A program made the position numbers and the translations under genes. From contig NZ_NSKC01000004.1 of NCBI RefSeq assembly GCF_002286985.1, positions 186,001-250,000 of the forward strand: DNA of 64,000 bases, read 5' to 3'. Shown here piece after piece: positions 37,417-46,486 of the stretch. Each line of letters opens with the position of its first letter. The first letter of the stretch is position 1. Below the pieces are notes generated by a model. It had not been told where the DNA came from. It saw only the letters and a program-made list of their open reading frames with translations, and did not search any database. Origin of the DNA: Halorubrum salipaludis (GTDB lineage Archaea; Halobacteriota; Halobacteria; Halobacteriales; Haloferacaceae).

Positions 37417-38160
37417 TCAGTCGCTCTGGATGCGCGGGGCGAGCATGAAGGTCACATGGCCGAGCCCCTCGGCGAACCCGTAGTGGAGCTTGACGGGGAA
37501 CTCCTCACCGAGCTCGACGGTGACCTCGGCGTCGGAGGGGATCGCCTTGTTCATGTCCTTGAGGTAGTCGAGGCTGAACAGCGAGTCGGCGGGGCCGGCG
37601 GTGAGCGCGATGAGGTCCTCGCGGTCGAGCCGCAGGTCGACGTCGTCGGTGTCGCCCTCCGCCTCGATGAAGAACGCCTCGTCGGTCTCGTCGACGCGCA
37701 GGCGGATGTGGTCCGAGACCATGTCGGCGGCCTTGATCCCGCGGTCGATCTGCGCGCCCTCGACGACGATCTCGGAGGCGAGGTCGAGGTCGGGGATGTC
37801 CGGCTCCTGGCGGATGGAGTCGGGGTCGATGAGCGCGAGGGTGTACGAGAGCCCGTCGATCTCGATGTGGAGCTTGCGGGTCTCCTCGTCGAGCTCGAGG
37901 TGGATCAGGTCGCCGGAGTTGGCCATGCCGGCGATGTCTTCGAGGCGGGCGAGGTTGACGCCGATGACGCCGCCGTCGGCCTCGTAGGACTCGAACGCCG
38001 CGGCTTCGAGGGTGAGGTCGACCATGCCGACGTTGGCGGGGTCGACGGCGCGGATGGAGAGCTCCTCCTCGTTGAGGCGGATCTTGCACTCGTCGACCAA
38101 CACGCTCACCGAATCGAGCGCGTCCTGTAGCGTCGACGCGCCCACGATGGCCTTGAACAT
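37417..38160 (-). CDS. pcn: DNA polymerase sliding clamp (PCNA)
   Basis: A 247-aa clamp that tethers replicative polymerases and other factors to DNA. It begins [24 protein letters not shown], contains the interdomain connecting loop near [19 protein letters not shown], and ends with the polymerase-contacting [14 protein letters not shown]. Length and domain duplication are normal and complete. A TTTTTAGG box (38185-38193 read on minus) lies about 25 nt before the ATG, so the transcript should be leaderless. This promoter segment belongs to a 71-bp direct repeat present again at 39078-39148. Confidence 0.97.
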
Positions 38161-38180
38161 ATACGTTCGGCTAGGGCGGT

Positions 38181-38251
38181 ATCACCTAAAAAGGCACCCG
38201 ATCGGACCGGCACGGAAACGCTCAAAGCGACCGGATCAGCCGGGCGACGAC
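38181..38251. repeat. 71-bp direct repeat, copy 1 (pcn promoter)
   Basis: Identical to 39078-39148 except one base. The copy starts ATCACCTAAAAAGGCACCCG and includes the pcn TATA box plus the last codons and stop of a gene ending V-A-R-L-I-R-S-(L). That gene is intact only beside copy 2. Confidence 0.9.
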
Positions 38252-38331
38252 CGCCGAGTCGTTTCCGACGACGAGATCACAAGATCGGGAGATCAGACCC
38301 GATGACATCAGTGTACGGCCCGATATCTCGG

Positions 38332-38346
38332 ATCCGCCTTGCGGAT
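38332..38346 (-). terminator. Small hairpin after the cassette
   Basis: ATCCGC/CTT/GCGGAT, a 6-bp stem with a three-base loop three bases beyond the stop codon of the 67-aa gene; a possible transcription end or RNA-stabilising element. Confidence 0.35.
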
Positions 38347-38349
38347 GAG

Positions 38350-38553
38350 TTATTTGAACGCCGGCCAGCTCATCCACGCGAGCGAGAGGAACGCGAACAG
38401 GAGTGCGGCGTACCCGATCAGGTTGAAAATGCCGCTTCCTGAGATTGCGGCCGCCACCAGGAGAAACATCCCGACGCCGAGGCTGATGATGGCTGCGGTG
38501 ACGCCTTTGAACAGCCGATCGACATCCTGTCTATTCAGGGCTCTCGTTGCCAT
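38350..38553 (-). CDS. Small two-helix membrane protein (67 aa) in the promoter-flanked cassette
   Basis: I do not recognise this protein. It has a hydrophilic N-terminus (MATRALNRQDVDRLFKG) followed by two hydrophobic helices (VTAAIISLGVGMFLLVAAAI and IFNLIGYAALLFAFLSLAWM) and ends MSWPAFK. The base composition is visibly less GC-rich and the codons less biased than in the flanks. It lies 29 bp downstream of the 147-aa membrane protein gene on the same strand, so the two are probably cotranscribed. Its start at 38553 is the only good ATG. A role with the neighbouring protein in one membrane complex is a guess. Confidence 0.6.
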   Translation of the reverse strand: MATRALNRQDVDRLFKGVTAAIISLGVGMFLLVAAAISGSGIFNLIGYAALLFAFLSLAWMSWPAFK

Positions 38554-38582
38554 GGTCTCTCGAACTCGTCGAGCGGAAACCG

Positions 38583-39026
38583 CTACGTTTCGTCGTTTGG
38601 TTCCCGTTCGGGGTCGTTCTCGTCTGTTAACTCCTTCCGCTGGGCTCCTAAATCTTCCTCTGTCTTATCGGAGCTGGTGGCCGTATCCGAGAGAGTCTGT
38701 TGTCCCCCGTCCTTCCTCGTGATCGCCAGCAGGTTCATCGGTAGTACGAGCACAGAGACGGTGAGAGCAGACAGCCCAAACGACAGTGTGGTGACGGCGA
38801 TGAACGCGGGATCGGAGAGCGAGAGGCCCAATGCCCATCGAAGCGCTGCCACGATACTGATCAGAAACAGGAATCCGGTTCCGATGAGGAGTTGAGCGAC
38901 GTACTCCAAGACGTCGTCTTGCATCTGGTCGGCTAGGTCGGAATTGAAAAGCTGATAGACGACGATCGCGATCAGCGGGACCGAGATCGCGGCGATTTCG
39001 AGGACGGTAAGAGCAAGGGCTGCCAT
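38583..39026 (-). CDS. Three-helix membrane protein with charged tail (147 aa)
   Basis: Unrecognised protein with three to four hydrophobic stretches (LALTVLEIAAISVPLIAIVV, VAQLLIGTGFLFLISIVAAL, AVTTLSFGLSALTVSVLVLP) and a ~40-residue tail rich in Asp, Glu, Lys and Ser (TLSDTATSSDKTEEDLGAQ). Codon usage is more AT-tolerant than in the flanks, suggesting transfer. The ATG at 39026 overlaps no gene, but a 10-codon ORF ends directly before it (TGA then ATG, same frame), indicating reinitiation. It sits with the 67-aa gene inside the segment bounded by the 71-bp direct repeats. Confidence 0.6.
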   Translation of the reverse strand: MAALALTVLEIAAISVPLIAIVVYQLFNSDLADQMQDDVLEYVAQLLIGTGFLFLISIVAALRWALGLSLSDPAFIAVTTLSFGLSALTVSVLVLPMNLLAITRKDGGQQTLSDTATSSDKTEEDLGAQRKELTDENDPEREPNDET

Positions 39027-39059
39027 TCAGCCGCTCACCTCCACAGCCCTGTCTGACAT
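39027..39059 (-). CDS. 10-aa leader ORF driven by the duplicated pcn promoter
   Basis: ATG at 39059, peptide MSDRAVEVSG, then TGA immediately followed by the ATG of the 147-aa gene. The TATA box of repeat copy 2 (39082-39090) is about 23 nt upstream of this ATG, almost the spacing seen at pcn (25 nt), so this ORF occupies the position of a leaderless start. Probably a coupling device; evidence is positional only. Confidence 0.4.
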   Translation of the reverse strand: MSDRAVEVSG

Positions 39060-39077
39060 GGCATTGGATAACGGCGA

Positions 39078-39148
39078 ATCACCTAAAAAGGCACCCGATC
39101 GGACCGGCACGGAAACGCTCAAAACGACCGGATCAGCCGGGCGACGAC
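39078..39148. repeat. 71-bp direct repeat, copy 2 (duplicated promoter)
   Basis: Matches 38181-38251 with one mismatch at an 897-bp offset. It covers a TTTTTAGG TATA box (39082-39090, minus strand) and the true 3' end of the 123-aa gene (stop at 39119). Confidence 0.9.

Positions 39149-44795: not shown

Positions 44796-46486
<1,691 letters not shown>

Follow-up and report, generated by a model that had tools for sequence, protein, structure and literature searches.

A membrane-protein gene pair inserted at pcn in Halorubrum salipaludis between two copies of the pcn promoter

In Halorubrum salipaludis (genome G000), two small membrane-protein genes beside pcn, which encodes the sliding clamp PCNA, are a clean insertion, found at pcn in 1 of 52 Halorubrum genomes. 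We analysed a 64,000-nucleotide stretch of contig NZ_NSKC01000004.1, hereafter the window (see Table 1 for the features at pcn). A sequence-only reading had proposed insertion with duplication of the pcn promoter; the insertion is borne out by that single occurrence together with empty sites in relatives, while the direction of events needs revision, since homologous pairs elsewhere mostly bring a pcn-type promoter of their own.

The insertion at pcn

The 71-bp direct repeat, previously described with one mismatch, was recovered (70 of 71 positions identical, copies 897 bp apart), and a longer alignment of the two copies covered 76 bp at 96%. As that reading had it, the pcn TATA box and the 3' end of the neighbouring 123-aa gene were seen within both copies; the 3' end in copy 2 is the genuine one and that in copy 1 a duplicate. 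The two ORFs assigned to the 897-bp offset were both open, and hydropathy indicated that the helices of the 147-aa and 67-aa proteins are membrane-spanning. The insert was also less GC-biased, as had been noted, with 57.9% GC vs 70.3% for the window (among the lowest 0.16% of 826-bp windows) and GC3 values of 0.70 and 0.78 for its two genes vs 0.98 for pcn. No terminal inverted repeats of the transposon or IS kind were reported at the insert ends, where the direct repeat is 71 bp, and the 897-bp unit held two small membrane genes only, with no integrase. No relative of the 93-bp tail was detected outside the insert, and the 123-aa protein had no family match in Pfam, PHROGs or NCBIfam.

Table 1. 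Features of the pcn region in H. salipaludis, in window coordinates
Feature	Position	Strand	Basis or remark
pcn, sliding clamp (PCNA), 247 aa	37417-38160	-	NCBIfam NF002222 (E = 2.6e-107); leaderless-type start at 38160
Repeat copy 1	38181-38251	-	Native pcn promoter; TATA-like element 38187-38192
Tail, 93 bp, between 67-aa gene and copy 1	38257-38349		
67-aa two-helix membrane protein gene	38350-38553	-	Open ORF; homologs in five other Halorubrum genomes
147-aa membrane protein gene, three TM helices	38583-39026	-	Open ORF; homologs; AF2; hydropathy
10-codon mini-ORF, MSDRAVEVSG and stop	39027-39059	-	TGA abuts ATG of 147-aa gene
Repeat copy 2	39078-39148	-	Cassette's pcn-type promoter; TATA-like element 39084-39089
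Inserted unit, 897 bp (one repeat copy + cassette)	38181-39077, equivalently 38252-39148		29 single-copy relatives
123-aa gene, native pcn neighbour, acidic, C-terminal hydrophobic helix	39119-39490	-	3' end inside repeat

The gene pcn was found in all 52 Halorubrum genomes. In each of the 29 relatives compared, the 71-bp segment was single-copy upstream of pcn and the cassette was absent, with homologous DNA leading without interruption from pcn through that copy to the 123-aa gene or to its neighbour, which refutes genus-wide synteny of the cassette. Compared to the empty-site relative G036, positions 38160-38251 were identical at 92 of 92 nucleotides, which identifies copy 1 as the native pcn promoter and shows pcn to have been left undisturbed. 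Promoter constraint on the segment makes the single difference between the copies unusable for dating the insertion. The 123-aa neighbour was itself absent or replaced in L028, L032, L033 and L041 (L numbers denote loci in relatives), and the pcn upstream region is thus variable in its own right.

The membrane pair, its mini-ORF and its gene company

The AlphaFold model of the 147-aa protein comprised three long helices and a disordered acidic C-terminal tail (pLDDT 71), and that of the 67-aa protein two helices (pLDDT 76). The structure prediction and homology search proposed in the sequence-only reading therefore supplied helix models but no meaningful family match: Pfam, PHROGs, PADLOC, NCBIfam and, by sequence, the PDB held nothing meaningful for either protein, and Foldseek of the 147-aa model against viral structures returned none below E = 0.001. 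Weak matches, among them one to DUF6249 (E = 0.043) and one to a sodium channel (E = 0.56), were discarded. When 391 genomes of the class were searched with a profile, the 147-aa family was confined to Halorubrum, including a weak match in G037, and the phage (INPHARED), plasmid (PLSDB) and IMG/VR sets contained no relatives. Both proteins co-occurred away from pcn in G016, G026, G028, G035 and G049, whose 147-aa homologs were 44-48% identical to that of G000; G022 had a distant homolog with a candidate similar small ORF downstream.

At all six pair loci a 33-nt mini-ORF (a start ATG plus nine codons, closed by TGA) ran directly up to the 147-aa start codon, and because the same arrangement recurs at every locus the 10-codon ORF is no accident. 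Its peptides differed among the six loci despite the constant length, and it carried a Shine-Dalgarno sequence of the GAGGT type in four loci and the variant GGGGGAGA in two; the G000 mini-ORF contained the Shine-Dalgarno-like GGAGGTGA at 39035-39042. Its ATG at 39059 lies 19 nt from the repeat edge, vs 21 nt for the pcn ATG at 38160, so that the leader start, said earlier to take the exact position of the pcn start, does so within 2 nt. From this arrangement, the mini-ORF is likely a leaderless ribosome entry point that hands over to the 147-aa gene.

Gene calls in relatives were made with a simple codon-bias caller written for this analysis. The G016 pair stood alone in a variable slot between fumC and sucC (genes named by reading), a gap of ~1.28 kb in this genome vs ~37-90 bp in G000, G004, G015, G036 and G042. 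The length of this slot (L080:8903-10244) varied widely among relatives, and it is apparently an insertion hotspot; just downstream of the solitary pair lay a ~200-bp MITE-like dispersed repeat (L080:8992-9207) with many 73-87% matches genus-wide.

The remaining four pairs (G026, G028, G035 and G049) lay in integrative elements. From the tyrosine integrase onward these ran through 102-aa, 199-aa, 159-aa, 132-aa, PadR-like and 80-aa genes to a wHTH gene, which was followed by the pair, a 107-aa gene, variable cargo and, last, an Orc1/Cdc6-type ATPase; the wHTH gene was usually divergent from the integrase-side genes, and some members were without some of the genes. In all four, the wHTH gene directly upstream of the pair belonged to PHROG 2440, regulators that we take to be phiH1-repressor-like. 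In this element family (L079, L081, L082, L083 and L189-L197) the integrase and the ATPase marked opposite ends, with swapped defence-like cargo between them. In G028 this cargo included a type IIG RM-like protein together with GmrSD and a D12 methylase; in G035 it included a PDC-S50-like protein, and in G026 HicAB-like ORFs (by reading). The sister element L197 kept the layout without the pair, its wHTH and 107-aa genes standing ~10 bp apart, which shows that the pair is optional.

Because of this gene company, with four of six pairs in elements that combine a PHROG 2440 wHTH gene and defence-like cargo, virus defence or superinfection exclusion is our leading guess for the function of the pair, ahead of a pore-forming module; we hold it tentatively, at somewhat less than even chances. 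The earlier suggestion of a defence role thus gained support from the company of related elements and none from motifs or families, as PADLOC, Pfam, PHROGs and NCBIfam gave no significant match to a described defence or exclusion protein. The G000 copy had neither defence genes nor a prophage regulator as company. Membrane proteins encoded by prophages for superinfection exclusion or immunity are a known class, which the pair resembles as small membrane proteins beside a prophage-type regulator in integrative elements; unlike that class, it has no sequence or fold match, is restricted to one archaeal genus among the 391 genomes, has a pcn-type promoter and occurs as solitary copies in two chromosomes. 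Haloarchaeal virus regulators of PHROG 2440 are of the same wHTH type as those upstream of the pair, whereas the pair itself has no counterpart in INPHARED phage records. We consider it unlikely that the pair is instead a lysis or pore-forming (holin-like or toxic) provirus module with no protective role: small proteins with two to three TM helices beside a viral-type regulator would suit such a module, but the pair is kept as single insertions in two chromosomes with the promoter type of an essential gene, lacks holin-family matches in Pfam and PHROGs, and had no recognised capsid or terminase gene in the element regions read, where a minority of proteins was scanned.

pcn-type promoters away from pcn

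A promoter matrix built from 24 distinct Halorubrum pcn promoters was used to scan 759,474 positions. Fifteen positions exceeded 12 bits, all of them pcn promoters or dispersed copies scoring 28.6 bits or more, and the background stayed below 12. The pair promoters of G000, G016, G026 and G049 scored 28.6-37 bits (37 bits for copy 2 in G000) and those of G028 and G035 failed the matrix test, giving a pcn-type promoter in four of six pairs. A DNA search with the pcn upstream region likewise returned dispersed copies besides the orthologous pcn promoters, two of them directly upstream of the pair (G026 and G016). Neither the reversed-sequence control nor IMG/VR yielded matches to the promoter pattern.

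The G026 pair promoter was 83% identical to pcn upstream DNA over 75 bp, and the likeness spanned the 3'-end region of the 123-aa gene including its TGA, which argues for copying and against convergence. In G049, the pair promoter and the genome's own pcn promoter shared the 20-mer GATTGGGTGGCTTTTTAGGT, which occurred in none of 49 other tabulated pcn promoters. A general matching of cassette promoters to their hosts was rejected, being clear for G049 only; the copies in G015, G046 and G033 mismatched their own pcn. Since 20 genomes of other genera and families had pcn promoters unlike the Halorubrum type, the pcn-type promoter is a Halorubrum sequence.

An unlikely alternative to copying is a shared regulon, in which one transcription factor binds all of these promoters and makes them alike. 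The strong conservation of pcn promoters within the genus and a core common to eleven non-pcn sites would agree with this, but the likeness extends to non-operator DNA (for instance TGAGCGTTTCCGTGCCG, with the 123-aa gene's stop codon), other genera have different pcn promoters, and the copies were found with mobile genes and not with host replication genes. Regulation may, after copying, have maintained the conservation of the promoter.

Eight other promoters of the window served as controls, and most of the matches listed looked either like split matches or like a single ortholog in each genome. The promoter of a 560-aa gene at 44804 (thermosome-like by reading) had, among the matches listed, extra places of ~45 bp in G016, G018 and G019; these probably belong to paralogous genes, and promoter-sized copies are therefore not wholly unique to pcn.

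Apart from the pair, a pcn-type promoter preceded the gene of a 46-aa acidic protein in seven of nine members of an element with repeated structured-looking motifs. These nine members (proteins of 45-53 aa) came from seven Halorubrum genomes, and their loci include L085:9490-9860, L086:8892-9176, L088:3249-3534, L089:9358-9720, L090:8900-9240, L091:400-727 and L092:9040-9375. The order was pcn-type promoter, leader and protein gene, followed by a second occurrence of the leader's CTCCACCC(G/C)TAGGCA-like motif; in several members the leader also held an inverted repeat of the GGAAAGCC...GGCTTTCC type. The one member searched had no match in Rfam, and two members adjoined pleolipovirus-like gene clusters (by reading). 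Two further copies (L087:9963-10023 and L093:1647-1678) lay near ~915-aa proteins; of these two proteins one was searched, that at L093, which lies ~200 bp downstream of the copy and matched a viral replication protein (PHROG 17376, E = 1e-121). Many Halorubrum genomes also had second PCNA genes (for example G018:C37, G036:C8, G036:C11 and G050:C8), which were divergent (39-72% identity) and may derive from viruses or plasmids. Our literature search, which covered open-access papers and at most a minority of subscription journals, yielded no description of pcn promoter copies in mobile elements of haloarchaea.

Origin of the insertion and its implications

With pcn-type promoters at four of the six pairs and the mini-ORF at all of them, the promoter appears as part of a portable cassette and was not gained only beside pcn. 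Homologous recombination between promoters is consistent with the near-identical copies, with the intact flanks and with the pcn-type promoter that the relatives have. The reading that we favour, at slightly better than even chances, is that a promoter-bearing mobile cassette entered pcn by recombination between its own pcn-like promoter and the native one; its own promoter is probably the reason why it could land there.

The cassette would consist of a pcn-type promoter, the 10-codon mini-ORF and the genes for the 147-aa three-TM and 67-aa two-TM proteins, in that order. Its ancestor would have picked up ~75 bp from upstream of a Halorubrum pcn gene and would have used this DNA for its expression ever since. 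A DNA molecule bearing the cassette would then have entered the pcn locus by homologous recombination within the shared promoter, so that a direct repeat remained and the 123-aa gene and pcn both stayed intact. For a single crossover the donor would be 897 bp, or larger with later deletion; IMG/VR, INPHARED and PLSDB contained no circle or plasmid with the G000 version of the pair. Transcription would start near the mini-ORF ATG, as at pcn; ribosomes would start leaderless on the mini-ORF and stop at the TGA/ATG junction, and the 147-aa gene would be started by coupling and the internal Shine-Dalgarno sequence. Expression of the cassette would in this way be linked to replication and, as the weakest step, the pair proteins may assemble into a membrane complex whose production keeps pace with that of the replication machinery.

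Integration of this sort is like Campbell-type single-crossover integration, in which the shared segment is directly repeated on both sides and the flanking genes are intact, and is unlike it in that the shared segment is only 71 bp, the insert only 0.9 kb and the donor not found. As with integron and other gene cassettes, a compact gene unit was inserted at a promoter; unlike integron cassettes, the unit has no integrase, an unsystematic look noticed no attC-like end, and most of the pair cassettes bring their own promoter.

Site-specific integration, with the 71-bp repeat as attL and attR of a tiny element served by an integrase in trans, would be consistent with a repeat that restores the 3' end of a gene, as typical att sites do, and with the tyrosine recombinase of related elements; attB would in this version be the 3' end of the 123-aa gene plus the pcn promoter. 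We judge it improbable: in related elements (L079 and L081) the pcn-like sequence was internal, at the position of the pair promoter, and not at the ends, the att-site search at the five non-pcn pair loci found neither an adjoining tRNA nor a long flanking direct repeat, and the 897-bp unit is without an integrase. The earlier version of events, in which an unrelated cassette landed at pcn by chance, made a long target duplication and gained its promoter here, is consistent with the G000 locus taken alone; we regard it as very improbable, given that three homologous pairs elsewhere were already pcn-promoted, that the mini-ORF is common to all, and that the divergence of the G000 147-aa protein from its homologs means that G000 is not their recent source.

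The pair defines two new protein families, both within one genus. Mobile elements must time their own genes to the host. A broader and rather doubtful reading is that unrelated element genes (the membrane pair, the 46-aa acidic-protein/RNA element and a viral replication protein) run from pirated pcn promoters, so that their expression follows host replication, with the promoter as a landing site at pcn. If this is true, at least three unrelated mobile gene families would have captured one housekeeping promoter, a concrete archaeal route to such timing, and the landing site would be pcn, an essential locus that cannot be lost. The leaderless mini-ORF would then be a conserved translational adapter in one of those families, and the whole would connect viruses and membrane-bound accessory genes to host replication at the level of regulation.
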